From NCBI RefSeq assembly GCF_947493765.1, contig NZ_CANLSZ010000004.1, positions 1-64,000 on the forward strand: DNA of 64,000 nucleotides. The letters run 5' to 3'. Positions within the stretch are counted from its first letter, which is position 1. Each line of letters begins with the position of its first letter. The DNA is from an uncultured Arthrobacter sp. (GTDB lineage Bacteria; Actinomycetota; Actinomycetes; Actinomycetales; Micrococcaceae). The translations under genes were made by a program, and so were the position numbers. The notes below the pieces were generated by a model, which was not told the DNA's origin, ran no database searches, and worked only from the letters and a program-made list of their open reading frames with translations. Positions 2,514-30,023 of the stretch are shown here, piece by piece.

Positions 2514-2690
2514 TCGCCCAGCCTAAACCGACCACTCGAGCTACTCCTGACCCCCACCAGCGCCTTTACGAGCACCATTCACTGGCTGGCCGACGCGACC
2601 TGCAACATTCGAGAGCAGCGGTGTCGATCAGCTGTGCCACCATCAAGGATGTGTTGCCGCCCGGAAGGGACAAGGGTAGAAGACAGTCTT

Positions 2691-3206
2691 GTGATCCTTC
2701 CTGCTGCCCGCGATCCTCGCCTCGTGTCCATTCGACGCGGTGGGCACCTAACCGAGGCCGATCACCGGCTCCTGGCTTTATGGGCAGCTACTTGCGCCGA
2801 ACATGTTCTAGGGCTGTTCGAGGAAACAAACCGACAGGATGGCCGCCCTCGCGCGGCGATCGAGGCCGCACGAGCCTGGACCCGGGGTGAAACGAAGATG
2901 ATGGCGACCCGCGCGATCGGAGGACACGCGATGGGCGCTGCGCGTCCCCTGCGTGGCGCTCCACGATTCGCGGCCTACGCAGCCGGCCAAGCGGCCTGCG
3001 TCGCCCACGTTCCCGAACACGACCTGGGCGCGGCCGCGTACGCCATCAAGGCAGCAGCAGCTGCAGCATCCCGCGATCAAGAACGCGAAGCCGCACGTGC
3101 TGAACGCGACTGGCAACGTCACCAGATCCCCGCCCATCTCCGCCAGCTTGTACTCGAGGACCAAAGCCGCAGAAACAGGATCTGCTGGTCCGTCTTCGAG
3201 GACTGA
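2691..3206 (+). CDS. putative immunity protein (Imm5-like, Ala-rich)
   Basis: A 171-residue Ala/Arg-rich, largely helical protein. The motifs DHRLLALWAATCAEHVL near the N-terminus, RPRAAIEAARAW in the middle and a repeated Ala/His segment (AAYAAGQAACVAHVPEH) match what I know of the putative immunity protein family related to Imm5 of polymorphic-toxin systems. The C-terminus (DWQRHQIPAHLRQLVL) is also typical. I start at the GTG at 2691, because family members begin close to the LPAARDPRLVS segment; an in-frame ATG at 2649 is the alternative. No toxin gene is visible next to it, so it would be an orphan immunity gene here. The family assignment is recognition, not a search. Confidence 0.6.
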   Translation: MILPAARDPRLVSIRRGGHLTEADHRLLALWAATCAEHVLGLFEETNRQDGRPRAAIEAARAWTRGETKMMATRAIGGHAMGAARPLRGAPRFAAYAAGQAACVAHVPEHDLGAAAYAIKAAAAAASRDQEREAARAERDWQRHQIPAHLRQLVLEDQSRRNRICWSVFED

Positions 3207-3466
3207 ACCCCGCAGAAGAGCCGCCCTTACCCTGTTCTTCATCCCTGACCGTAAACCGGTCAGCGAACAGGACAGCTACCGGCATGGGTGGCGCGGACTG
3301 TGGATGCTGAAGTCATGAGGTATACCTGCCTTGCCTCATGGTAGGGCGTCAATAAGCAGGGTGCGCCTACCTGATGTCTGAATTGAGCGACGGCAGCGAG
3401 GGACAATTTGCTCGCTCGCTCCCACTCTGATTCATGGACGGACAGAGCTCTTGACGCCGCGATCCG

Positions 3467-3509
3467 TGTAAAGCTAGCTTTGCTATGTAAAGCAACGTGT
3501 ACATATTAG
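3467..3509 (+). promoter_or_regulatory. promoter with repeated TGTAAAGC boxes upstream of the membrane protein/XRE pair
   Basis: Two direct copies of TGTAAAGC (3467-3474 and 3486-3493) lie 19 bp apart, about two helical turns. A perfect 12-bp palindrome AAAGCTAGCTTT (3470-3481) overlaps the first copy. A plausible promoter is TTGCTA (3480-3485) with TATTAG (3504-3509), spacer 18 bp, ending 7 nt before the ATG at 3517. The repeats are probably the operator of the XRE regulator encoded as second gene; this is inference. The rest of 3207-3466 contains no gene I can support. Confidence 0.5.
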
Positions 3510-3516
3510 GGGCGTC

Positions 3517-3984
3517 ATGACCGATCAGAGCGTACGAACAACGTGGGGTCGCACAACCTTCAGCGGAGGCCGTTTCCCGGCCATGGCGATCGCCCTGCCA
3601 TGTGGAACGGTGATCGCCGCTCTCCTGGGTCTTCTAGCCGCCACGCTCCGCATCGGAGAATCGAATCCCTTCATCATCGGAGTAGTCTTCGCGGTCTGTT
3701 TCATCCCACCAGCGACGATGCTTGTCTACATCCTCATCGTCGACCGGTCGACGATGAAGGGAGCTGCCGCACGGCCGGAGGAATCCGTGGAATCCGGTTG
3801 GTACGACAAGGCAGCAGCCGGCGCCCTGACGGACATCGTGATCGTCGCCGGTATCACCGCAACGGTCCTTTCCTTCATCCCAGACAAGCTCGCTCTCGAT
3901 CCGGGACTTCTGCTCGCCGGCGTTATCTGTCTAGCCTTCGTCTCTGTCGGGGTTCGCTACCTGATCCAGCAACACCGAAGCTGA
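3517..3984 (+). CDS. four-TM membrane protein paired with an XRE regulator
   Basis: A 155-residue protein with four hydrophobic helices (about residues 20-45, 52-75, 108-128 and 135-152). Between helices 2 and 3 is a polar loop with the segment ESGWYDKAAAGALTDI. Small four-helix proteins of this type are often encoded directly with a Cro/CI-type HTH regulator, as here: the next gene starts one base after this stop. The TATTAG -10 element lies 7 nt before the ATG and there is no clear Shine-Dalgarno sequence, so the transcript is probably leaderless. The function of the membrane partner in such pairs is not established. Confidence 0.75.
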   Translation: MTDQSVRTTWGRTTFSGGRFPAMAIALPCGTVIAALLGLLAATLRIGESNPFIIGVVFAVCFIPPATMLVYILIVDRSTMKGAAARPEESVESGWYDKAAAGALTDIVIVAGITATVLSFIPDKLALDPGLLLAGVICLAFVSVGVRYLIQQHRS

Positions 3985-5690: not shown

Positions 5691-7172
5691 CTAACGGACC
5701 CGGAAGACCGTGTCCTGCCATTCCTTATGAGCCGCGGAATCGCGGCTGATCGACACGTGCTTGATGTTCGTGTACTCCTCCAGCGAGTAGATCGACATGT
5801 CGTTGCCGAAACCTGAGGCCTTGTATCCGCCGTGCGGGAGTTCGGAGACCACGGGGATGTGGTCGTTGATCCAGACGCAACCTGCCTGGATCTCCGCGCT
5901 GGCGCGCATGGAACGGCTCACGTCCCGGGTCCAGGCCGATGCCGCCAGCCCGTACACCGTGTCGTTGGCCAGGACGATGCCCTCGTCGTCGGTGTCGAAG
6001 GGCAGCGCCACGAGCACCGGTCCGAAGATCTCGTCCTGCACCACCTCCGAGTCCTGCTGCACGCCGGTGATGAGCGTGGGTCGGTAGAAGGCGCCCTCCG
6101 CGAGGTCGCCGTCGGGCGCGTACCCTCCTGCCAGCACCGAGGCTCCGGCCGCACGCGCCCGGTCGACGAAACCCGCCACCCTGTCACGGTGGTCGCGCGT
6201 GATCAGGGACCCCAGATCGGTGTCGGGGTCGGTGGGATCGCCCACGACGACGGCGTCCATCAGTTCCGCCACCCGCGTGGTGAACGCTTGGAAGAGGGGA
6301 CGCTGCACGTACGCCCGTGTGGCCGCCGTACAGTCCTGGCCGCCGTTGATGATCGCCCCAGCCACGGCACCGTGCGCGGCAGCCTCCACGTCCGCGTCGT
6401 CGAAGACCACCAGTGGTGCCTTGCCTCCCAGTTCGAGGTGGACCCGTTTTCCCGACTGCGCAGCACGTGCCATGATGTGCCGGCCGACGGCGGTGGAACC
6501 GGTGAAGGAGACCATGGCGACGTCCTGGTGGCTCACCAGGTGCTCGCCGATCTCCTCGCCGCGGCCTGTGACGATGTTGATGACTCCGGGCGGAATGCCG
6601 GCCGCGCCGGCTGCTTCGGCGAAGAGCAGGGAGGTGCCCGGAGTGTTCTCTGCCGGCTTGAGGACGATCGTGTTCCCCGCAGCGATCGCGGGCAGGATCT
6701 TCCAGGCCGCCATCTGCAGCGGATAGTTCCACGGCGCGATCGACCCGATGACCCCGACGGCCTCGCGGCGCACCATCGAGGTGCCGCCGGTGCCGTACTC
6801 GCCTGCTGCCAGCCCCGCAAGCTGACGGGCAGCGCCGGCGAAGAAGTAGATGTTGTCGATCGTCCCCGGTACATCGAACCCGCTTGCCAGGCGGATGCTC
6901 TTGCCCGTCTGCTCGGACTCAAGCGCTGCAAACTCGACAGCCCGGCGCTCGACCTCGGCCGCGAAGGCCAGCATCGCCGTCGAGCGTTCGCCAGGGGTGC
7001 GGGAGGACCACCCTGGCAGGGCCGCCCTGGCAGCGGCGACGGCGTCGTCGACATCCTCGGTGGTTGCGTAGAACTGGGTTCCGGTGACCTTGCCGGTCGC
7101 AGGATCGATGCACTTCGCCTCGGCGCCGCGGGCGCGCCGGTAGGCGCCGTCGATGAACAGGTGCTTCTCCAT
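5691..7172 (-). CDS. NAD-dependent aldehyde dehydrogenase (aminobutyraldehyde/betaine-aldehyde type)
   Basis: A 493-residue aldehyde dehydrogenase of full family length. The catalytic Cys is C281 (GGQDC), the general base is E247 (LELGG), and the cofactor segments PWNYPLQMAAWK and FTGSTAVG are present. The resemblance is to gamma-aminobutyraldehyde and betaine-aldehyde dehydrogenases. As last gene of a polyamine-type operon, it would oxidise the amino-aldehyde released by the upstream FAD oxidoreductase to an amino acid such as GABA (inferred). I start at 7172, which has GGAGGAG 6 nt upstream; a GTG at 7205 overlapping the previous stop is possible but has no such site. Confidence 0.9.
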   Translation of the reverse strand: MEKHLFIDGAYRRARGAEAKCIDPATGKVTGTQFYATTEDVDDAVAAARAALPGWSSRTPGERSTAMLAFAAEVERRAVEFAALESEQTGKSIRLASGFDVPGTIDNIYFFAGAARQLAGLAAGEYGTGGTSMVRREAVGVIGSIAPWNYPLQMAAWKILPAIAAGNTIVLKPAENTPGTSLLFAEAAGAAGIPPGVINIVTGRGEEIGEHLVSHQDVAMVSFTGSTAVGRHIMARAAQSGKRVHLELGGKAPLVVFDDADVEAAAHGAVAGAIINGGQDCTAATRAYVQRPLFQAFTTRVAELMDAVVVGDPTDPDTDLGSLITRDHRDRVAGFVDRARAAGASVLAGGYAPDGDLAEGAFYRPTLITGVQQDSEVVQDEIFGPVLVALPFDTDDEGIVLANDTVYGLAASAWTRDVSRSMRASAEIQAGCVWINDHIPVVSELPHGGYKASGFGNDMSIYSLEEYTNIKHVSISRDSAAHKEWQDTVFRVR

Positions 7173-16588: not shown

Positions 16589-17455
16589 ATGCTCAACGAC
16601 GGTCGCCCGATGATCGAGGTCATCAAGGAGCAGCAGGTCACGGAGGCGACGTGGTACCGGTGGGTGAACCAGTACGGGTCAGCGCTGCGCAAGGGCCGCC
16701 CGGAGACTAGCTTCGAGGAAGCCCAGCTGCGGCCCGACCTTCGCGCGGTGGAGGTGAAGCATCCGGCGTGGGGGTGGCGAAAGGCGCGCTGGCATCTGCT
16801 GGCCCAGGCTCGCTGGGACGGGGTGGCGTTGAACACGAAGCGGATCCGCCGGCTCTGGCGCCTCGAGGGGCTCACCTGTAAGCCCAAGGCGAGGAAGAAG
16901 CGCACGACCTGGCCCGGCGCCGGGGAGCAGAAGCGGTTGCGGGCCCAGTACCCGATGCACGTGGTCAGCTTCGACTTCCAATCCGCTGTGACGTCCTGCG
17001 GCCGGGCATATCCGGTTCTTCTTTCGTCTCGACGAATACACGCGTACCGCTTTGGCGATCAGCCCGCGCAGGTCATTCACCGCAGCGGATGTGGTCGCCG
17101 TATTGGAGGACGTCATCGCCGAAACCGGGATTACCCCGACCTACGTGCGCTCGGACAACGGACCCGAATTCACAGCCGCTGCCCTGACCGACTGGTGCAA
17201 CACCGCCGGGGTGGGGACCGCGTTCATCGACCCCGGCTCACCGTGGCAGAACGGGTTCGCGGAGTCCTTCAACGCCCAATTCAGAAGAGAACAACTCACC
17301 GGGGAAATCCTGGACACCATGGCCGAAGCCAGCTACCTCGCCAGGAATGGAAAGACGTCTACAATCATGAACGGCCCCGCGGATCCCTCGACGGCATGAC
17401 ACCCTCGACATACTGGAAACGCTGGACCGCAGACAACCAACTAGCTATCGCATAG
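16589..17455 (+). pseudogene. decayed IS3-family transposase
   Basis: The segment shows an IS3-type transposase in pieces. Part 1 (from 16589) has the OrfA-like helix VTEATWYRWVNQYG fused to the OrfB start (HPAWGWRKARWHLL, then MHVVSFDFQS). Part 2, after a frameshift near 17005, carries the DDE core (YVRSDNGPEFTAAAL and DPGSPWQNGFAESFNAQFR). A second shift near 17340 returns to the first frame for the C-terminus (WKDVYNHERP, then PSTYWKRW). The middle part of OrfA is missing. It cannot make a full enzyme. I found no clear terminal inverted repeats, so the element ends are unknown. Confidence 0.8.
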
Positions 17456-17524: not shown

Positions 17525-17834
17525 CACCAGTTGCGCGCAGCCTACCGCCACCCCAACGCCGTCGAGGGACACACGATCGCCGGAAAAATCCTCGACTCTC
17601 TTCCGACCTGTACGGTTCCTGAAATCGCCCGGCTCGGCCGCACGCTCAAACGCTGGTCGAACGCGCTCCTGGCTTACTTCGACACCAACCGGTCCAACAA
17701 CGGCGGCACCGAAGCCGTGAAGCGGCTCATCGAGCTCCACCGCCGGGTCCCCTCGAGGATTCAGGAACAGCGACACGTCCCGCCTACGCATGCTCCTCAT
17801 CGGCGGCGGACCCACCCACCCCCACCTCACGTAA
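17525..17834 (+). pseudogene. 3' fragment of an ISL3-family transposase
   Basis: Only the C-terminal part of an ISL3-type transposase remains. VPEIARLGRTLKRW, ALLAYFDTNRSNNGGTEAVK and LIELHRRV are characteristic. A frameshift in the stretch near 17750 then moves the reading to RGFRNSDTSRLRMLLIGGG, ending at TAA 17832-17834. The 5' two thirds are absent. With the IS3 remnant immediately before it, this marks a region of repeated insertion and decay. Confidence 0.75.
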
Positions 17835-18076
17835 GAAGAGCCAGTAAATCTTCGTCCACAGGCAGGTACTCGATAGAAGAAGCAGGTAGTCCTCTCGCTA
17901 CTTCGATCCAAGAGCCGGGTTTAAACGGGTACCTGTTACTCGTGATCGTCGGATGAACATCGCCTGAACTGGAATCAGTTGTTCAAGTCCAGTAAGAGGG
18001 TCCTGATGGTGAAATTCACAACGTCGTACGGTTGTGTGGCCGGAAAGGTGTCACGGCGAACCGCGAGGGCGTTCTC

Positions 18077-19600
18077 ATGAAGATCGGTCTCATTACCGAG
18101 GGGACGTACCCGGCGGTGACCGGCGGCGTCAGCACCTGGTGCGATCAGCTCGTGAGCGGTCTGTCGGAGCATCAATTTGACATCGTAGCGCTGACCGGCA
18201 GCGGAGCCGACCAGTCCGTGTGGGAAATGCCTGACAATGTGCGTTCGGTTTGCTTGATCCCGGTGTGGGGTCCTCCTGTCGCCGCCTTGCGTCCCGGGTC
18301 ACGGCGTCGGAGCTTGGTCGAGTCGACGCAGCAGGCGCTCGTTCAGCTCTGGGATGCCGCCCTGGGATCCGATGATTCGGACCCTGTGGCACGCATGTCG
18401 GAAGCCCTGCAGCATCTGGTGGGCATCAGCGATGCGGTAGGTCTGGCTCGCATCCTGGCGAGCAGGGGATCCGTGGCGCCCATCCTGAATGCCTGGGAGC
18501 GTCAGACCAATGGTTCGGGTGCGCCTCGCATGTCCGTTGCTGATGCGGTGCTGGCCGCCAGCATCGTCGATCGTGCCTTGGCCGTCGTCGACCATTGCAT
18601 GGCGGAGGTGGATGTCCTCCATGCCACCAGCAACGGCTCCGCGGCCCTGTTAGCACTGGCTCAGTCGTGGCGGTACGGCACCCCGATTCTCCTGACGGAG
18701 CACGGTGTCTATCTGCGCGAGCGATACCTGGCGCTCCATGGGGCCAATGTGTCGTGGCCGGTGCGTCGCGCGGTGACTGCATTCCTCCGACGCCTGTGTC
18801 AGGTGGTCCATACGCAAGCGCACATGGTTCTCCCCGTGAATCAGTTCAATGCCCGCTGGGAGCGACAACTCGGTGCTGACCCGGACCGAATCTTCACCAT
18901 TCCCAATGGCGTTGACCCGGCGAAATTCACTCCCGTCACATCTGAACCGGATGTGCCAACCGTCAGTTTCGTGGGCCGTATCGATCCACTCAAGGATCTG
19001 GAAACTCTCATTACTGCCTTTGCAAGTGTTCGTGCCCGAATTCCGAACGCACAATTGCGCCTTTTCGGTCCCACGCCTACCACCAACGCGTCGTACAAAA
19101 AGCGCCTCGTCGAATTGGCGAGCACTACCGGTGTGTCCGGTGCTGTTCATTGGGAAGGGCCCAGTAAGGGCAGCCGGCCCGCGATCGAAGCGGGGCATGT
19201 GGTTGCACTGTCCAGTGTGTCCGAAGGGCTCCCCTTCACCCTGATCGAGGCGATGATGTGCGGGAGGGCCACGGTGAACACTGATGTCGGGGGTGTGGCG
19301 GAATGCCTGGACGAGCAGCAGACAACCGGCCGACTGGTTCCGGCGAAGGATCCTGAGGCCTTTGCCGATGCGTGTGTCGAGCTGCTGACCGATCACGAGT
19401 CGAGGGCCCTCATGGGTGCCGCGGCTCGACGGCGGGCTCTCTCCGAGTTCACGCTCGATCGGTGCCTCGACCGTTACCGCGCGGCCTACACGGCAACTCA
19501 CGACAGACGGTTGCTCTCGCAGGCACGCAGCGCCGACGCCGAAGTTATTCCTATCGGGGCGAGACACGCCGATGAACCTGTCATGGAGCTCTCAGCATGA
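18077..19600 (+). CDS. pelF: PelF-like GT4 glycosyltransferase (exopolysaccharide synthesis)
   Basis: A 507-residue cytosolic GT4 glycosyltransferase. The N-terminus MKIGLITEGTYPAVTGGVST is the hallmark of PelF and its DUF3492 domain. In the C-terminal half are SFVGRIDPLKD and the nucleotide-sugar binding E-x7-E motif in SEGLPFTLIEAM (E383 and E391). PelF polymerises UDP-GlcNAc/GalNAc-type sugars into Pel polysaccharide in Pseudomonas, and its length there is essentially the same. I start at the ATG at 18077, with GAGGGC upstream; the frame is open for 15 codons before it. The stop overlaps the next ATG (ATGA). The other Pel genes are not present, so the product here need not be Pel itself. 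Confidence 0.85.
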   Translation: MKIGLITEGTYPAVTGGVSTWCDQLVSGLSEHQFDIVALTGSGADQSVWEMPDNVRSVCLIPVWGPPVAALRPGSRRRSLVESTQQALVQLWDAALGSDDSDPVARMSEALQHLVGISDAVGLARILASRGSVAPILNAWERQTNGSGAPRMSVADAVLAASIVDRALAVVDHCMAEVDVLHATSNGSAALLALAQSWRYGTPILLTEHGVYLRERYLALHGANVSWPVRRAVTAFLRRLCQVVHTQAHMVLPVNQFNARWERQLGADPDRIFTIPNGVDPAKFTPVTSEPDVPTVSFVGRIDPLKDLETLITAFASVRARIPNAQLRLFGPTPTTNASYKKRLVELASTTGVSGAVHWEGPSKGSRPAIEAGHVVALSSVSEGLPFTLIEAMMCGRATVNTDVGGVAECLDEQQTTGRLVPAKDPEAFADACVELLTDHESRALMGAAARRRALSEFTLDRCLDRYRAAYTATHDRRLLSQARSADAEVIPIGARHADEPVMELSA

Positions 19601-20925
19601 GCACTGACAGCGTCTCCCTGCCGGCTTCAGGAGGCTCGTCGGCGGCTTCCAGTAACGATCATCTGACCCTCGATGCCGTTGACACCTTCGAGGTCAGTGC
19701 CCGTCTCGAAGCTTCCGGCGTCAGCGACCGTACCGTGCGTCGGCAATACGGAGCCTACGACGTCTTCGATTACGCGCAGTCCCTCCCCTGGGTTCGCCAG
19801 TTATCCGAGACTCCGGAGGTGCCGGGAAGTTGGGTGGGCCGCGAAGCCCTGCTCGGGGCCGCGCGTCGCGGCATCGTCCTGATCCTGGGCGCCATTCTCG
19901 GAGGCCTGACAGCCACCGGTCTGGCCGTGGAGACCAGCAGCATTCTCATCGCCGGTGTTGGTGCGTGGGTCATAGGCCAGGCTGTGTCGGGCATGGTCTG
20001 GACACACGCAGGTGCCGGAAATCTCCAGCGCGGCATTGCACGGGGCACGGGTGCCACCGTTTTCGTCGTGTCGATCCTCGCCTGTTACACGGCGGTTTCC
20101 CTCGCGCTCCCCGGTCACGACACGACCACGGCCGCCCTCACGACCGTATGGTGCCTGTACTCCTGCGTGGTGTCGATGCTCGTGATCCTCGGACGGTCCT
20201 GGTACCTGTTGATCGTCCTCGCAAGCGCAGCCGTGGCAATGACGCTGGCACTGGTGTTGGGCCGTGATGATGCGGTGACACACGTGACTCTCGTGGCCGG
20301 CACGGTGGTCGTGGCTTTCACCCTTGCCCTTATCGCTGTACTGCGCACCATCGACGAACGGCGTGTTCCTGATCGCAAGGACTGGAAGACGGCAGTGGCG
20401 CCGGCGGCGCAGGCAGGTTTCCTGGCTGCTGCCCTGGCAACCGCATTGACCCAACTGCCCGACTGGGAGGGAACCGCGCTCATCGTGGCCACCGTTGTAG
20501 CCGCTGCTGCCACCGATCCGGCCTTGGTTCTCATGCGTCAGCGGCTGGTGTGGTCCTCCACCCACACGCCGCTCCTCAGGCGCGCGGCAGCAAACGCCTG
20601 GTTCCTCACGCTGGGGATGTCGGGGGCCATCGTGATCGTGTCCGCAGCAGTGTCCATGCTGGTTGTCCTGCTTCTGGTAGAGGATACGCGGACCACCACC
20701 GTGCTTGTTGCCGCCGCCTTCAGTTCCCTGGCGACGACGTCGACAACGCTGAATGCCTTCGGTATGCCGCGCGGCGCGGTGCTCTTCGCCGGTGCGGCGT
20801 GCTTTGCTGCTCTGGTGTGGATCATCCTGGGGAATGCGCTCGGCGCACTGCTGACCGTCGTCTTCCTGGTCGCGGGCATCGTGATGTTGCTGGCGAGGGT
20901 CTCCGATCCGCGGGCGTACGCGTGA
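19597..20925 (+). CDS. polytopic membrane protein of the Pel-like cluster
   Basis: A 442-residue protein. Residues 1-80 are cytoplasmic and include FEVSARLEASGVSDRTVRRQ followed by YGAYDVFDYAQ, a conserved-looking helical segment. About 10-12 transmembrane helices follow to the C-terminus. It is translationally coupled on both sides (ATGA with pelF, GTGA with the next gene). By position it should be the membrane partner of the glycosyltransferase, in the place PelG takes in Pel systems, but it lacks the PelG N-terminus I know and I see no direct similarity. Export or assembly of the polymer is inferred only. Confidence 0.75.
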   Translation: MSTDSVSLPASGGSSAASSNDHLTLDAVDTFEVSARLEASGVSDRTVRRQYGAYDVFDYAQSLPWVRQLSETPEVPGSWVGREALLGAARRGIVLILGAILGGLTATGLAVETSSILIAGVGAWVIGQAVSGMVWTHAGAGNLQRGIARGTGATVFVVSILACYTAVSLALPGHDTTTAALTTVWCLYSCVVSMLVILGRSWYLLIVLASAAVAMTLALVLGRDDAVTHVTLVAGTVVVAFTLALIAVLRTIDERRVPDRKDWKTAVAPAAQAGFLAAALATALTQLPDWEGTALIVATVVAAAATDPALVLMRQRLVWSSTHTPLLRRAAANAWFLTLGMSGAIVIVSAAVSMLVVLLLVEDTRTTTVLVAAAFSSLATTSTTLNAFGMPRGAVLFAGAACFAALVWIILGNALGALLTVVFLVAGIVMLLARVSDPRAYA

Positions 20926-21608
20926 GATCCGCCCAACTTGCGCCTCCCTGGTACGTGCATCCCGCAGCCGAGCCTCAGGAATGGGCGTGGCTCGCAAACC
21001 AGCGCCGTGAGGTCTCGTTCGCCGTCATGAACGTTCACGACGGGCCAGGTCAGGACGGTGACGCATACTATCCAGCTGCGTTGGCCGAACTGCAGAACAT
21101 CCAGCTTCTGGGATATGTTCCGGTCTCCTACGGCGAGCGGTCCGTGGCGGAGGTAGCTCGCGACATCGCAGCTTGGCGAACGTTCTACGGGATGACGGGA
21201 ATCATGCTCGATGAGCTGCCTACCTCGCCGCAGAGCCTGGCGCGCTGCGGCGAGTACGCTGCTGCGGCACGGGAGGCGGGAGTCTCCTTCCTTGTAGCCA
21301 ACCCCGGCGTCTTCCCCACGTCGGAACATCTGGACCTCCTCGACGTGACCTGCGTCTTCGAGGGCACCGCCGCAACCTATACGGACTTCGAACACCCGGA
21401 CTGGGCGCGAGATGTTCCGCCGTCCCGGCTGTGGCATCTCGTCTACGGCTGCGAACCCGAGCAGATCGACGCCGTCACTTCCGGTGCGATCGAACGAGGT
21501 GCCGGACACGTCTTCGCAACTGATCGCTCGCTGCCCAACCCCTGGCTCGGGCTTCCAAGGGTTCTCTCGGCCGAACTCCGGTTCGAGCTGCAACCAGCAC
21601 AACAGTGA
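20922..21608 (+). CDS. spherulin-4-like glycoside hydrolase
   Basis: A 228-residue TIM-barrel-type protein of the spherulation-specific family 4. Visible family motifs are PPWYVHP at the start, AVMNVHDGPG, LGYVPVSYGERSVAEVARDI and GIMLDELPTS, whose acidic pair is D97-E98. Characterised relatives (GH135, Sph3) cleave galactosamine-containing polysaccharide. I start at the GTG at 20922, which overlaps the previous stop (GTGA); the open frame upstream is a shadow of the membrane gene. No signal peptide is visible, so the enzyme would be cytoplasmic, which is odd for a polysaccharide hydrolase. Its stop overlaps the GTG of the next gene. Confidence 0.8.
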   Translation: MRSAQLAPPWYVHPAAEPQEWAWLANQRREVSFAVMNVHDGPGQDGDAYYPAALAELQNIQLLGYVPVSYGERSVAEVARDIAAWRTFYGMTGIMLDELPTSPQSLARCGEYAAAAREAGVSFLVANPGVFPTSEHLDLLDVTCVFEGTAATYTDFEHPDWARDVPPSRLWHLVYGCEPEQIDAVTSGAIERGAGHVFATDRSLPNPWLGLPRVLSAELRFELQPAQQ

Positions 21609-22411
21609 CGACGCGGCGATGGCGGACCGAGCTCGCATCAACGCTCCTGATAGCACTGGTCGCCTGCGCTCCGGCGGGCAACGGTGCTCCTCCGTCAGCA
21701 ACTCCCCCTGCCTCGCTCTGGTCGCCCTCCCCGTCCGCGACCTGGCAGTGGCAACTCAGCGGTGGCCTGGATTTGAAGGTGGACGCGGACCTCTTCGATC
21801 TGGATTATGAAACCACGACTAGCGCCGAAACGGACGAGCTGAAGCGCGATGGCCGGCACCTCATCTGTTACCTCTCCGCGGGTTCCGTGGAGGAGTATCG
21901 CGATGACGCCGACGCGTTCCCGCCCTCGGTGGTGGGGGAGGTCATGTCCGGTTGGGCGGACGAACGATGGCTCGACATCCGCCGAACGGAAGTTCTGCTG
22001 CCGATCATGGCAGCCCGTATGGACATCTGCGCCGACAAAGGCTTCGACGCCGTCGAGCCCGACAACGTTGACGGCTATGTGAACGACACCGGCTTTCCGC
22101 TGACCGCCGCTGACCAGCTCACCTACAACCGGGCGGTTGCTGATTTGGCGCATGCCCGGGGGTTGTCCGTGGCGTTGAAGAACGACGTCGACCAAATTCC
22201 CGAACTCGTTGACACCTTCGACTTCGCCGTCAACGAGGAATGCATCCGCTACGCCGAATGCGACCAGTACGAGCCCTTCGTCGACGCGGGCAAGGCCGTG
22301 TTGCATGTCGAGTACGAGGGGCCCCTCGACTTCTGCGCCGAATCAAGACGCTACGGATTGTCCTCAATGCTCAAACCGGCGGAACTCACGGCCTCCAGGC
22401 AGCCCTGCTGA
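21605..22411 (+). CDS. endo-alpha-1,4-polygalactosaminidase-like lipoprotein (GH114)
   Basis: A 268-residue secreted glycosidase. The N-terminus is a lipoprotein signal with LVAC (Cys21), followed by a Pro/Ser-rich linker. The catalytic domain shows WQWQLSGGLD, CYLSAGSVEEYRDD, ADERWLDIR, GFDAVEPDNVDGY (E151, D153, D156) and NEECIRYAECDQYEPF, all typical of GH114. Characterised members such as Ega3 hydrolyse alpha-1,4-linked galactosamine. Anchored outside the membrane, it would trim or release the polymer made by the PelF-like enzyme. It is the last gene of the coupled four-gene operon. Confidence 0.87.
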   Translation: MTTRRWRTELASTLLIALVACAPAGNGAPPSATPPASLWSPSPSATWQWQLSGGLDLKVDADLFDLDYETTTSAETDELKRDGRHLICYLSAGSVEEYRDDADAFPPSVVGEVMSGWADERWLDIRRTEVLLPIMAARMDICADKGFDAVEPDNVDGYVNDTGFPLTAADQLTYNRAVADLAHARGLSVALKNDVDQIPELVDTFDFAVNEECIRYAECDQYEPFVDAGKAVLHVEYEGPLDFCAESRRYGLSSMLKPAELTASRQPC

Positions 22412-25366: not shown

Positions 25367-26332
25367 ATGTCCTCAGCAATCGTCGTCCAGCAGTCCGGCG
25401 GACCCGAGGTTCTCACCCTCGCCTCCGCCGACCGGCCGGAACCGGGTCCCGGCCAGCTCCTCGTGAAGGTCGCCGCCGCCGGAGTCAACTTCATCGAGAC
25501 CTACCAGCGCAGCGGCGTGTACCCCGTGGAGCACCCGTTCACCCCGGGAGCCGAGGCCGCCGGGACCGTCGAAGCCGTCGGTGAGGGCGTCACCGACTAC
25601 AGCGCGGGAGACCGCGTGGCCTTCGCCGAGGGCAAGGGAACCTACGCCGAGTATGCACTCATCGACGCCGACCGCGCCCTGCCCGTGCCCGACGGCGTCG
25701 ACCTCGAGACCGCGGCGGCACTGCCCCTCCAGGGCATGACCGCGCACTACCTCATCAACTCGACCTTCGAGGTGCAGCCGGACCATACGGTGCTCGTCCA
25801 CGCCGGCGCCGGCGGCGTGGGGCTGCTCATCATCCAGCTCCTCAAGGCCAAGGGCGCCCGCGTGTTCACCACCGTGTCCACCCCCGAGAAGGAGGACCTG
25901 GCCCGCGGAGCCGGCGCCGACGAGGTGCTCGGCTACGAGGGCTTCGCGGATGCCGTCACGTCGCTGACCGACGGCGTGGGCGTGGACGTGGTGTACGACG
26001 GCGTGGGCAGGGCGACCTTCGACGAGTCGCTGCGCTCGCTGCGGATCCGGGGCACCATGGTGCTCTTCGGTGGGGCCTCCGGTCCCGTGCCGCCGGTCGA
26101 TCCGCAGCTGCTGAACAGCAGCGGCGGGCTCTACCTCACGCGCCCGTCGATCGTGCACTACGTGCGCACCCCCGAGGAGCGCCGCTGGCGGTCCTCCGAA
26201 CTCTTCGACGCCGTCCTGGCCGGGAAGCTCGACGTGCGGATCGGAGCCCGCTACGCGCTGGGCGACGCAGCCCAGGCGCACGAGGATCTCGAGGGCCGGA
26301 AGACCACGGGCAAGGTTCTGCTGGTCCCCTAG
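25367..26332 (+). CDS. NADPH:quinone oxidoreductase (zeta-crystallin type)
   Basis: A 321-residue medium-chain reductase without the zinc ligands of alcohol dehydrogenases. Visible are GVNFIETYQRSGVYP, PGAEAAGTVEAVGEGV and the nucleotide-binding motif VHAGAGGVGLLIIQLLKAKG; the C-terminus ends GKVLLVP, as in QOR proteins. It reduces quinones with NADPH by one or two electrons. AAAGGAA precedes the ATG. It converges on pheT, with a strong hairpin between them. Confidence 0.92.
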   Translation: MSSAIVVQQSGGPEVLTLASADRPEPGPGQLLVKVAAAGVNFIETYQRSGVYPVEHPFTPGAEAAGTVEAVGEGVTDYSAGDRVAFAEGKGTYAEYALIDADRALPVPDGVDLETAAALPLQGMTAHYLINSTFEVQPDHTVLVHAGAGGVGLLIIQLLKAKGARVFTTVSTPEKEDLARGAGADEVLGYEGFADAVTSLTDGVGVDVVYDGVGRATFDESLRSLRIRGTMVLFGGASGPVPPVDPQLLNSSGGLYLTRPSIVHYVRTPEERRWRSSELFDAVLAGKLDVRIGARYALGDAAQAHEDLEGRKTTGKVLLVP

Positions 26333-26396: not shown

Positions 26397-28940
26397 TCAG
26401 CGCTGGACGGCCCCGAACCGCTCACCCGCGAGCGCCACCGCGGCATCGCGTGCAGCGCTGGCCTCCTCGGCCGTCAGCGTCCGGTCGGGCGCCCGGAAGC
26501 GCAGGGCGAAGGCGAGCGAGGTGCTGCCCTCGGCGATACCGGGGCCGGTGTAGACGTCGAACAGGCTGACGTCCTCGAGCAGATCGCCCGCACCCTCCCG
26601 CAGGGTCTCCAGCACGTCGCCGGCGACGACGGCGGAGTCCACCACGAGCGCCACGTCCTGCGTCGCCGTCGGATACGTGGACAGCGAGCGCGCCACGATG
26701 ATGTCGGCAGCAGCGTCGAACAGGCGGTCGACGTCGATCTCGAACGCCACCGTCCGGGCCGGCAGATCGTGGGATGCGCTGACCTTCGGGTGCAGTTCCC
26801 CGGCGTGACCGAGCACCTCACCGCTGCGCAGCACGAACTCCGCGGTCCGTCCGGGGTGGAACGCCTGGTGAGTCCCCTGCCGCACCACCACGTCCACGCC
26901 GGTCACGCTTCCCATGAGCTGCACGACGTCGACGGCGTCGGCCCAGTCCCAGGCCCGCGCCTCCACTCCGGCGGACGGCGGCACCTCGAGGCCCGTGAAC
27001 AGCCCGGCGATGACCTGCGGCTGGTGCGGGATCCCCTCGTACAGGGCGTCGAGGACGTCGTCGTCGGGCTTGATGCCCAGCGGCGGGATGGTCGGCGTGC
27101 CCATCTGCTCACCCGGCAGGAAGACGGACCCGGACTCGAACAGGGCGAGATCGCGGAAGCCCCGCGAGTGGTTCCGCTTGGCCACCTCGATGAGGCCGGG
27201 CAGGACGGACCGGCGCAGGTACGCGCGCTCCGCACTGAGCGGATTGGCGAGCCGGACCGCCGGTGCGGCTGCGCCCTCCTCGGACGTGCCGAAGAGCGTG
27301 TTGGCCTGCTCGCTGACGAACGGGTAGGACAGCACCTCGGTGAGCCCCGCCGCCGCGAGGGCGTTCAGGAGGCGCCGGCGCTGCTGCTGCACACGCGTCA
27401 GACCACGGCCGGGAGGCGCCACGGGAAGCGTGGACGGGATGGTGCTGTACCCCACGAGGCGGATGATCTCCTCGGTGAGGTCCTCGCGCGTCTCCAGGTC
27501 CGAGCGCCAGCTCGGCGCCGTGACGCGCCAGCCGCCGTCGACGGGCTCCACCACGGCACCGAGATCGGTGAGCGTGCCGGTGATCTGGTCCCCGGTGAAC
27601 TCGCGGCCGATCAGGCGCGCCGGGAAGTCGGCGGCCAGCTCGATGACGCGCGGCTCCGGCGCCTGCCCGACGTCGGTCACGGCGTCGTCGGCCGTGCCGC
27701 CGGCGAGCTCGAGGAGGAGATCGACGGCGCGCTGGGCTGCGACGTCGGCGATCTGCCAGTCGACATCGCGCTCGAAGCGCCTCGAGGCTTCCGACGGCAG
27801 TTTGTGACGGCGCCGGGAGCGGCCGATGCTCACGGGGTCGAAGTGGGCGGACTCGATGACGATGTCGGCGGTCCTGTCCGAGACCTCGGTGGACGCACCG
27901 CCCATGACACCGGCGATGCCGATGGGCCCGGAGGCGTCGGTGATGAGCAGGTCCCCGACGTCGAGCGCGCGCTCCCTGTCGTCGAGGGTCCGCAGCGTCT
28001 CACCCTCGGCGGCGCGGCGCACCTCGATCTCACCGGAGAGCGTGTCGCGGTCGTAGAAGTGCAGGGGCTGACCGAGCTCGAGCATCACGTAGTTGGAGAT
28101 GTCCACCACGAGCGAGATGGACCGGATGCCGGCCAGGCGCAGGCGCGCGGACATCCACGGCGGGGTGGGGCGGGTAGGGTCGACGCCGCGCACGGTGCGG
28201 GCCACGAACCGGTCGCAGCCGTCCACGCCGTAGATGGGAGCCTCGTCGGCGAGGCGCACCGGGTACCCCTCACCCGCGGCGGCGGGCACGACGACGGCGT
28301 CGGCCGGGTCGGTAAAGGCCGTCCCGGTGGCGTGGGCGTACTCGCGCGCCACCCCGCGGATGGAGAAGCAGTAGCCGCGATCCGGTGTCACATTGATCTC
28401 GGCGGCCTCGTCGTACAGGCCGAGGAGCTCCATGGCGTCCTCACCCACCTCGGGGTCCAGCCCGAGCGTGGAGAGCACGAGGATGCCGTCGTGGTCCTCC
28501 CCGATGCCGAGCTCCTTCACCGATGCGATCATGCCGGCCGAGACGTGGCCGTAGGTCTTGCGGGGGCTGATGCGGAAGTCACCGGGCAGGACGGCGCCGG
28601 GCAGCGTCACCACCACCTTGTCGCCCTCCTCGAAGTTGTGCGCGCCGCAGACGACGCCCTGCACGCCCGAGGGGTCGATGCCCTCGCCCGTGAGGGTCTG
28701 CTCCTCACCCTCGGGCACCACGCGGACCTGGCACCAGTTGATGGTCTTGCCGTTGGTCTGGGGCTCCGCGATCCTGCTGAGCACCTGGCCGACGACGACG
28801 GGTCCGCTGAGCTCGTCGGTGGGCCGGTGGACGTCCTCCTCCTCGAGGCCCACCTTCACGAGCTCGGCCATCACGTCTTCCGCGGTAGCGTCCGCGGGCA
28901 CGGCTGCGTACTCGCGCAGCCAGGACAGTGGGATTCTCAT
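26397..28940 (-). CDS. pheT: phenylalanyl-tRNA synthetase beta subunit
   Basis: An 847-residue PheRS beta chain of full length. It begins MRIPLSWLREY and contains the N-terminal tRNA-binding OB fold (GDKVVVTLPGAVLPGDFRIS), the B3/B4 editing domain, the B5 region and the C-terminal anticodon-binding FDX-ACB domain (STYPTATQDVALVVD). With PheS it forms the cytoplasmic alpha2-beta2 enzyme that charges tRNA-Phe. The ATG follows the pheS TAG directly with no gap. Confidence 0.98.
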   Translation of the reverse strand: MRIPLSWLREYAAVPADATAEDVMAELVKVGLEEEDVHRPTDELSGPVVVGQVLSRIAEPQTNGKTINWCQVRVVPEGEEQTLTGEGIDPSGVQGVVCGAHNFEEGDKVVVTLPGAVLPGDFRISPRKTYGHVSAGMIASVKELGIGEDHDGILVLSTLGLDPEVGEDAMELLGLYDEAAEINVTPDRGYCFSIRGVAREYAHATGTAFTDPADAVVVPAAAGEGYPVRLADEAPIYGVDGCDRFVARTVRGVDPTRPTPPWMSARLRLAGIRSISLVVDISNYVMLELGQPLHFYDRDTLSGEIEVRRAAEGETLRTLDDRERALDVGDLLITDASGPIGIAGVMGGASTEVSDRTADIVIESAHFDPVSIGRSRRRHKLPSEASRRFERDVDWQIADVAAQRAVDLLLELAGGTADDAVTDVGQAPEPRVIELAADFPARLIGREFTGDQITGTLTDLGAVVEPVDGGWRVTAPSWRSDLETREDLTEEIIRLVGYSTIPSTLPVAPPGRGLTRVQQQRRRLLNALAAAGLTEVLSYPFVSEQANTLFGTSEEGAAAPAVRLANPLSAERAYLRRSVLPGLIEVAKRNHSRGFRDLALFESGSVFLPGEQMGTPTIPPLGIKPDDDVLDALYEGIPHQPQVIAGLFTGLEVPPSAGVEARAWDWADAVDVVQLMGSVTGVDVVVRQGTHQAFHPGRTAEFVLRSGEVLGHAGELHPKVSASHDLPARTVAFEIDVDRLFDAAADIIVARSLSTYPTATQDVALVVDSAVVAGDVLETLREGAGDLLEDVSLFDVYTGPGIAEGSTSLAFALRFRAPDRTLTAEEASAARDAAVALAGERFGAVQR

Positions 28941-30023
28941 CTAGATCTCCATCCCGAAGTGGTCGCTGAAACGGACGTCGCCCTCGATCATGTCGTGCAT
29001 GTCGACGACGTCGTTGCGGAACATGAGCGCCCGCTCGATCCCCATCCCGAAGGCGAAACCGGAGTAGACCTCCGGGTCGATGCCGGTGGCCCGCAGCACG
29101 TTCGGGTTGACCATGCCGCAGCCGCCCCACTCGATCCAGCGCGCGCCGCCCTTGGCGCCCGGGTGCCAGATGTCGAGCTCGGCGCTCGGCTCGGTGAAGG
29201 GGAAGAAGTTGGGGCGCAGCCGTACCTTGGCCTCGTCGCCGAAGAGTTGCTGCGTGAAGTACTCAAGCGTTCCCACGAGATCGGCCATGGTGAGGCCCTT
29301 GTCGATCGCGAGGCCCTCGAACTGGTGGAAGACCGGGGTGTGCGTGGCGTCGAGCTCGTCGGTGCGGAACACCTTGCCCGGACACAGCACGTAGATGGGC
29401 AGCTCACGCTCGAGCATCGACCGGATCTGCACGGGCGAGGTGTGCGTGCGCAGCACGAGGTGCGCGTCGAGGGGCTCCACGAAGAAGGTGTCCTGCATCT
29501 CGCGTGCCGGGTGGTCCGGCTTGAAGTTCAGGGCGTCGAAGTTCAGCCACTCCGATTCGAGCTCGGGCCCCTCGGCGATCTCCCAGCCCATGCTGACGAA
29601 GACGTCGCTGACCCGCTCCTGCAGCGTGGAGAGTGGATGGCGCGCCCCGTGCCGCCGACGGCGGGGGGCTGCCGTCACGTCGACGGCCTCCTCGACGAGG
29701 ATCCGCGCGTCGCGCTCGGCCTCGAGCTCCGCGGTCCGGGTGGTGAGCGCCTGGTTGATCCGGCCACGTGCCGGGCCGATGTTCTTGCCCGCCGCCGACT
29801 TCTGCTCCTTCGGCAGCGCCCCGATCCCCCGGTTCGCCAGACTCAGGGGCGACTTCTCGCCGGTGTGCGCGATCCGGACCGCCTTGAGCCCGTCCAGGTC
29901 TGCCGCGGCGGCGATGGCGGCCAGCGCGGTGTCGACGGCGCCCGTGACGGACGCCGGATCCAGCGGATCGGGAACCGACGCCTCGGGGCCGGTGTGCCCG
30001 GGGTTCTCTGGGGTTTCGGTCAT
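28941..30023 (-). CDS. pheS: phenylalanyl-tRNA synthetase alpha subunit
   Basis: A 360-residue class II synthetase alpha chain. The coiled-coil N-terminal arm (about residues 25-110) is followed by the catalytic core with GRRHGARHPLSTLQERV, the motif 2 region VFRTDELDATHTPVFHQFEG and the motif 3 region GFAFGMGIERALMF. It activates phenylalanine and works with PheT. The 200 bases upstream, to the divergent gene, show a short hairpin (GGCTCC...GGAGCC near 30063-30080) but no T-box or leader peptide that I can support. Confidence 0.98.
   Translation of the reverse strand: MTETPENPGHTGPEASVPDPLDPASVTGAVDTALAAIAAAADLDGLKAVRIAHTGEKSPLSLANRGIGALPKEQKSAAGKNIGPARGRINQALTTRTAELEAERDARILVEEAVDVTAAPRRRRHGARHPLSTLQERVSDVFVSMGWEIAEGPELESEWLNFDALNFKPDHPAREMQDTFFVEPLDAHLVLRTHTSPVQIRSMLERELPIYVLCPGKVFRTDELDATHTPVFHQFEGLAIDKGLTMADLVGTLEYFTQQLFGDEAKVRLRPNFFPFTEPSAELDIWHPGAKGGARWIEWGGCGMVNPNVLRATGIDPEVYSGFAFGMGIERALMFRNDVVDMHDMIEGDVRFSDHFGMEI

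Follow-up and report, generated by a model that had tools for sequence, protein, structure and literature searches.

The window analysed here, a 64,000-nucleotide stretch of contig NZ_CANLSZ010000004.1 from an uncultured Arthrobacter sp. (Micrococcaceae), carries on its forward strand, at 18077-22411, four genes whose products are a glycosyltransferase of the PelF family, a membrane protein without a named family and two hydrolases of the families GH135 and GH114 (Table 1). The genes are joined by 4-base overlaps (ATGA, GTGA and GTGA), which proved exact when the coordinates of the open reading frames were checked, as a first-pass annotation of this DNA had read them. This operon is real and conserved, and its kind has been published as a prediction. 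We consider it probable that the four genes are a version, lacking the deacetylase Agd3, of the bacterial operons that resemble the fungal galactosaminogalactan (GAG) cluster. What is new is the Agd3-less variant found in Micrococcaceae. No regulatory RNA was found at 15-26 kb of the window, and promoter and terminator scans did no better than chance (at or below it).

Table 1. Features of the operon and its surroundings (positions in the window)
Feature	Position	Strand	Size and basis
PelF-family GT4 glycosyltransferase, putative N-acetylgalactosamine (GalNAc) polymerase	18077..19600	+	507 aa; E383-x7-E391, R301/K306; family scans, tree
Unnamed integral membrane protein, putative polymer exporter paired with PelF	19597..20925	+	442 aa; about 10 predicted transmembrane helices
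Conserved N-terminal motif of the membrane protein, residues 27-61, ahead of the first predicted transmembrane helix	19675..19779	+	alignments
GH135 (spherulin-4/Sph3-like) hydrolase, predicted cytoplasmic	20922..21608	+	228 aa; GIMLDEL, VFEGT; no signal peptide
GH114 endo-alpha-1,4-galactosaminidase (Ega3-like), predicted lipoprotein	21605..22411	+	268 aa
Lipobox LVAC, GH114 residues 18-21, behind a hydrophobic stretch	21656..21667	+	sequence; lipobox rule
Frameshifted IS3-type transposase remnant (HTH_21, below the Pfam cut-off; rve)	16589..17455	+	family scan; outside the operon
ISL3-type transposase fragment (DDE_Tnp_ISL3)	17531..17956	+	family scan; outside the operon
Dehydrogenase of the zinc-binding, quinone oxidoreductase type; marks a position common to second-genus carriers	25367..26332	+	outside the operon
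Two genes, position markers common to second-genus carriers (presumably pheT and pheS)	26397..30023	-	847 and 360 aa; outside the operon

Identity of the four gene products

The first gene product scored 171 bits against the NCBIfam model NF038011 (PelF, cut-off 100) over nearly its whole length and 166 bits against the Pfam family DUF3492. Its E-x7-E pair is invariant in 13 aligned sequences (the window's and those of 12 relatives). Its early assignment to the PelF family is supported. PelF and other GT4 sequences, 82 rows in all, were placed in a quickly searched maximum-likelihood tree with SH-aLRT supports; the rows were chosen by hand, 13 Streptomycetaceae being retained. Every PelF row separates from five other GT4 rows (support 99), three of which pass the MshA cut-off. 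Sixty-three rows, including that of the window, form a clade, hereafter clade A (support 91), on a branch distinct from the PelF proteins linked to PelG. The latter group with the PelF proteins linked to GHL15 (support 96). The program flagged that long branches meet in this tree, and the PelG-linked group itself has a support of only 76. A deep-branching pair of PelF proteins (L057 and L065) was also observed, each accompanied by a GH114 gene and two Agd3-like genes, one of the two apparently lacking a signal peptide.

The membrane protein encoded by the second gene matches no family of Pfam or NCBIfam, and no named family matches it well. The core of its N-terminal motif, (L/I)E-x2-G, is present in all 78 membrane-protein sequences (75 by the strict pattern and three by eye). 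Profile-profile comparison led us to reject it as a diverged PelG (probability 0.2%) and as the GHL15-linked membrane protein (0.5%), and DUF7185 gave a weak match in only one of 40 members. At L065, a neighbouring protein with 10 transmembrane helices (2621-3922) has a similar LEAWG stretch, but falls below the cut-off of the membrane-protein family.

The assignment of the last two genes to GH135 and GH114 is supported by family scores and PDB matches alike. The third product matches Pfam Spherulin4 (1.4e-32), and in the PDB it comes closest to 5c5g and 5d6t, both spherulin-4 (about 1e-14); the fourth matches Pfam GH114 (1.9e-84), with Ega3 (6oj1) as best PDB match (5e-52). The GIMLDEL and VFEGT segments of GH135 align with Sph3, the catalytic Asp being present in 68 of 68 members and the Glu in 67. 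The latter is the Glu222 named in PMC12054363, and the Asp was assigned by alignment and spacing. The residue following the nucleophile is Gln in 51 of the 68 members, Arg in 11, Glu in five and Cys in one; Sph3 has Asp-Glu, as do all 14 Micrococcaceae carriers described below (13 through a pattern search, L182 in a separate look). Inactivation by Asp-Gln or Asp-Arg was not adopted as an explanation, because the catalytic Asp and Glu are retained. In GH114, the Asp and Glu of VEPDNVD and VNEECI are conserved in 58 of 58 members, and the alignment to 6oj1 keeps the 58-residue spacing of Asp189/Glu247. A second, distant GH114 gene lies unlinked elsewhere in the window's genome (L060:9549-10406 on contig G000:C10). 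Over 126 aa the two proteins are 37% identical, and the 20 kb stretch around the second gene contains no called pelF.

The two hydrolases differ in their predicted location. Of 58 GH114 sequences, 55 were placed, and 52 of these have a hydrophobic N-terminus, many with a lipobox recognised by eye. No signal peptide was seen in the 41 of 68 GH135 proteins whose gene directly follows the membrane gene; six of the 41 passed the hydrophobicity cut-off, through stretches within the domain itself. In 40 of the 41, the domain is estimated to start within a stretch that runs from 27 bases ahead of the membrane gene's stop codon to 88 bases behind it; in L077 the estimate is 172 bases behind. Judged from its sequence, the GH135 protein of the window is probably cytoplasmic. 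The Agd3-like proteins of related loci have a hydrophobic N-terminus in 42 of 67 placed sequences (72 in all), automatic starts being often wrong.

Conservation of the operon and the missing deacetylase

We surveyed 149 Micrococcaceae genomes and found PelF at E 1e-30 in five, including the window's own. Full-length relatives of the membrane protein occurred in four, namely the window's genome and three from a different genus, the latter with identities of 61-63%; two further matches, weak and partial (E 2e-4 and 4e-4), were left uncounted. A census of the two genera with profile A2 at E 1e-90 gave 14 carriers, comprising three of 38 genomes in the window's genus and 11 of 29 in the second genus. 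The order pelF, membrane gene, GH135 is kept in all 14, and GH114 comes next in 12; it lies about 3.3 kb further in L183 and is not within the fetched stretch of L182. The gene order, whose absence from relatives the first-pass annotation had named in advance as a reason to drop its reading, is thus conserved in its core. No further gene, a replacement deacetylase included, is conserved beside the cassette across the 14 loci. One of the five PelF proteins of the survey, in genome G127, is a lone clade-A PelF (L043:9718-11937, 43% identical) with no partner genes nearby and an integrase-like gene, recognised by eye, directly downstream.

A wider scan of named genomes, made with the PelF alignment alone, matched at least 594 stretches, of which 574 encode a relative and the best 80 were kept. 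These come mainly from Actinomycetota and from a few Deinococcota, a sample biased to Streptomyces and to sequences close to the query. Among these best 80 loci, all encode PelF, 77 the membrane protein, 72 an Agd3-like protein, 67 GH135 and 57 GH114, and the three without the membrane gene (L082, L086 and L139) stop 250 bases or less from the PelF match. Other neighbours were a sugar epimerase/dehydratase (31 loci), a nucleotidyltransferase (31) and a GalE-type protein (9). A second set held 95 loci besides the window in which the clade-A profile scores PelF above 360 bits; it includes four pairs that are one contig taken twice. Of the 95, 82 have 5 kb on either side. Agd3-linked PelF clusters are also carried by plasmids of Thermus, Deinococcus and Streptomyces (L155, L156 and L157).

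The Agd3-like profile, A1, was built from 10 proteins and matches fungal Agd3 (PDB 6nwz, E 7.7e-14), with weak matches to heparan sulfate deacetylases. At E 0.01 or lower, six of its 10 members match Pfam CBM87_Agd3 and five match Agd3_CE, with scores below Pfam's own cut-off in the two members whose scores were examined. An Agd3-like gene is absent from eight of the best 80 loci (L070, L071, L072, L074, L086, L096, L116 and L134), four of which (L071, L086, L096 and L134) have less than 3.1 kb of upstream sequence. It is present in 74 of the 82 flanked clade-A loci and was not found in eight (five of the Arthrobacter group, L043, L054 and L116).

Genome-wide, A1 matched none of the 14 carriers, the window's genome included (E up to 1 in G000, G080, G131 and G146, and up to 0.01 in the ten others); nor did it match G270, a genome from outside Micrococcaceae. 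Eight of 19 genomes matched A1 at E 0.01, but these eight gave A1 its sequences and are not independent controls; that part is played by the 72 positive loci of the best 80, minus four that share contigs with A1 rows. DUF2194, the deacetylase PelA(DA) of Gram-positive Pel operons, was likewise found in none of the 14 carriers, while the control genome G290 matched; the full PelA was not searched separately. With filters off, a search of the 14 carrier loci for a remnant of agd3 gave nothing better than E 0.62. In the genome-wide search, three non-carrier genomes gave weak matches to the Agd3 profile (E 0.06 to 0.26).

The absence of a recognisable deacetylase, first noted at this locus, extends to the carrier genomes as far as Agd3-like and DUF2194 proteins are concerned. 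The suggestion that such a set is a minimal variant does not hold as a general design, since 72 of 80 relatives' loci carry an Agd3-like gene near pelF. The absence of Agd3 looks derived and confined to one clade, apart from a few isolated cases (L043, L054 and L116). The 14 carriers form a single PelF clade (SH-aLRT 100) nested among Agd3-linked rows, and a single loss is enough to account for them. Four further clade-A rows without a seen Agd3 (L043, L054, L074 and L116) are dispersed in the tree.

The position of the operon was also compared among carriers. In six of the 11 second-genus carriers the cassette lies between genes that we take to be pheT and a quinone oxidoreductase gene recognised by family scan, followed by what are presumably arginine genes; two more adjoin one side of this position. 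In the window, the dehydrogenase and the putative pheTS genes lie about 3 kb downstream of the cassette, and in the two other carriers of its genus and three of the second genus the cassette is located elsewhere. The transposase remnants noted beside the operon are real, IS3-type and ISL3 pieces lying upstream. The horizontal gain read from them is not upheld, as the carriers form one clade of 14 and the markers are common to eight of the 11 second-genus carriers. An old common position with losses is favoured over recent capture by an insertion sequence, and the case for transfer is weakened.

Proposed function and rival explanations

Computation shows the gene identities and their linkage, the catalytic residues, the differences in signal peptides and the lack of Agd3-like and DUF2194 matches; from these we infer which sugar is used and how it is joined, how the chain leaves the cell, that PelF is docked and what the two hydrolases each do. 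A galactosamine-type polymer, as proposed at first, is the likely product. PelF would polymerise UDP-GalNAc, perhaps with other sugars, on the inner face of the membrane; the membrane protein could dock PelF through its N-terminal motif and move the chain outward. The presumably cytoplasmic GH135 may cut or recycle nascent acetylated chains inside, and GH114, as a surface lipoprotein, would trim the chain after export. Most relatives outside Micrococcaceae encode close by an Agd3-like enzyme, which would be secreted, deacetylate the chain and make it cationic. In the Micrococcaceae clade, the polymer may stay largely neutral, or lose acetyl groups to an enzyme encoded elsewhere in the genome, for which the only CE4 protein of the window's genome is a candidate. 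A bolder version is possible, although we hold it only tentatively: PelF and the membrane protein would form a new two-part synthase-exporter, the bacterial counterpart and perhaps the ancestor of fungal Gtb3, and the Micrococcaceae clade, with its cytoplasmic GH135 and no dedicated deacetylase, would make a neutral poly-GalNAc coat and not a cationic adhesive.

The published description of such operons fits an Agd3-less GAG-like operon, as does the specificity reported for Sph3, which acts on acetylated polymer, and for Ega3, which acts on deacetylated polymer (PMC7229062 and PMC12054363). Several observations weigh against this reading. As fungal Ega3 acts on deacetylated stretches, a GH114 kept without Agd3 is odd, and this argues for an unrecognised deacetylase; either GH114 here takes acetylated polymer or another enzyme deacetylates. 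The single CE4 deacetylase of the genome (PF01522; G000:C2) is unlinked to the operon. The topology of GH135 depends on the choice of start codon, the frame being open upstream inside the membrane gene, and was covered in 41 of 68 members. GH114 (57 of 80 loci) and GH135 (67 of 80) are less constant than PelF and the membrane protein, partly through contig ends. Among the several bacterial GH114 candidates tried in PMC12054363, actinobacterial ones included, very few were soluble. Neither chemistry nor a phenotype for a bacterial operon of this kind, nor any experiment on an actinobacterial one, was found among the literature listed (most subscription journals lay outside the search).

The locus was first described as a reduced Pel-like cluster. 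Taken as a rival explanation, this would mean a true Pel locus shrunk to PelF and hydrolases, from which PelG, PelD, PelE and PelA have disappeared and in which a membrane protein of other descent has stepped in. The glycosyltransferase does exceed the equivalog cut-off of PelF, and canonical loci may also hold GH114, as in Pseudoalteromonas (L152). There, in a PelD-pelF-pelG locus, a gene annotated as endo alpha-1,4 polygalactosaminidase (5859-6683) lies on the opposite strand beside pelG. We nevertheless regard a reduced Pel locus as unlikely: clade A stands apart from the PelG-linked set in the quick tree (SH-aLRT 91 for clade A, 96 for the PelG-linked and GHL15-linked side), the membrane-family and PelG profiles are unlike, and the relatives have Agd3-like deacetylases. 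PelG was not found in the window's genome, the one genome searched for it; PelD and PelE are not among the four genes, a negative that comes without a genome-wide search. With a separate PelF clade, no match to PelG (one genome) or DUF2194 (14 genomes) and neighbours of Agd3/GAG type, the Pel framing was given up. On the whole, the genes and the missing deacetylase of that first description stand; its Pel framing is not retained, and its horizontal gain lacks support.

A similarly small chance goes to a role in breaking down or scavenging GAG or Pel made by fungi and other bacteria, with a different task for the glycosyltransferase. A GH114 predicted on the surface and a second, unlinked GH114 in the genome would fit such a role, but GH135 has no signal peptide, the polymerase and the membrane protein are the most constant members, and the 14 loci share no extra gene next to the cassette. 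Finally, a decaying remnant of a complete operon, with Agd3 gone and the rest following, could account for the patchy carriage (3/38 and 11/29 genomes), the displaced or absent GH114 in two of 14 carriers and the insertion-sequence remnants upstream, but is very improbable given four open frames with catalytic residues and 4-base overlaps kept, an Agd3-less clade that covers two genera and has thus persisted, and no remnant of agd3 in the 14 loci.

Comparison with known systems

An Agd3-less operon of GAG type is closest to the bacterial operons of Bamford et al. 2020 (PMC7229062), who reported Agd3 homologues in 45 bacterial species and regarded such operons as putative. In 30 of the 35 bacterial species of their tree, agd3 lies in or near an operon that pairs a cytoplasmic glycosyltransferase with a multi-spanning membrane protein and in most cases adds GH114; spherulin-4 occurs in the operons of some Actinobacteria. 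All four components are found here, whereas no agd3 was found in the operon or in the genome. The main text of that paper does not use the word PelF, and no discussion of a bacterial GH135 signal peptide was found in it. For Streptomyces, the paper cites a wall polysaccharide that contains galactosamine, and for S. griseus an endo-galactosaminidase that is secreted.

Pel, too, is a polymer of alpha-1,4-linked GalNAc from which part of the acetyl groups are removed (PMC12022489). The pelABCDEFG operons and the Gram-positive pelDEA(DA)FG operons, the latter reported in some actinobacteria (PMC7112168), share with the present one a PelF-family glycosyltransferase; they differ in that here PelG and DUF2194 are missing, the PelF clade is separate and GH135 is present. 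A further type is formed by actinobacterial loci combining PelF with GHL15 (L045-L052 and L061-L063, likely also L158), found in the window's genus too. They share a PelF-family protein, a membrane protein and, in 10 of 11 loci, a hydrolase-like neighbour, but their PelF is distant (about 24-26% identical), their membrane protein belongs to another family and GHL15 (scanned in L045) replaces GH135 and GH114. Two of these loci, L045 and L046, are from the window's genus and consist of an operon of an unnamed membrane protein, a distant PelF and a GHL15 hydrolase. A PelF copy of the GHL15-type operon is carried, with galE downstream, by plasmid pTC2 of Paenarthrobacter aurescens TC1 (conjugative according to PLSDB).

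GAG is reported to require deacetylation in order to be adhesive, and Pel biofilms are reported to depend on it as well (PMC4817252, PMC12022489). A clade keeping the synthase, the putative exporter and both hydrolases without a deacetylase would offer a natural test of this rule. The GAG cluster of Aspergillus fumigatus (uge3, sph3, gtb3, ega3 and agd3; PMC4817252, PMC8224951) has hydrolases homologous to the GH135 and GH114 proteins described here, and a glycosyltransferase, Gtb3 (Gt4c). The cassette of the window lacks the epimerase and Agd3. Fungal Sph3 is described as bound to the membrane and active outside (PMC12054363), whereas GH135 here shows no signal peptide, which is a genuine contrast provided that the starts are correct. 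Gtb3 is described as a single putative transmembrane glycosyltransferase, while here the glycosyltransferase and the membrane part are encoded by two genes. The operon could serve as a bacterial proxy, made of two genes, for the fungal synthase; it points to an unnamed family of putative exporters, and it bears on the published idea that the fungal GAG cluster came from bacteria, for which Bamford et al. took the bacterial operons as support.

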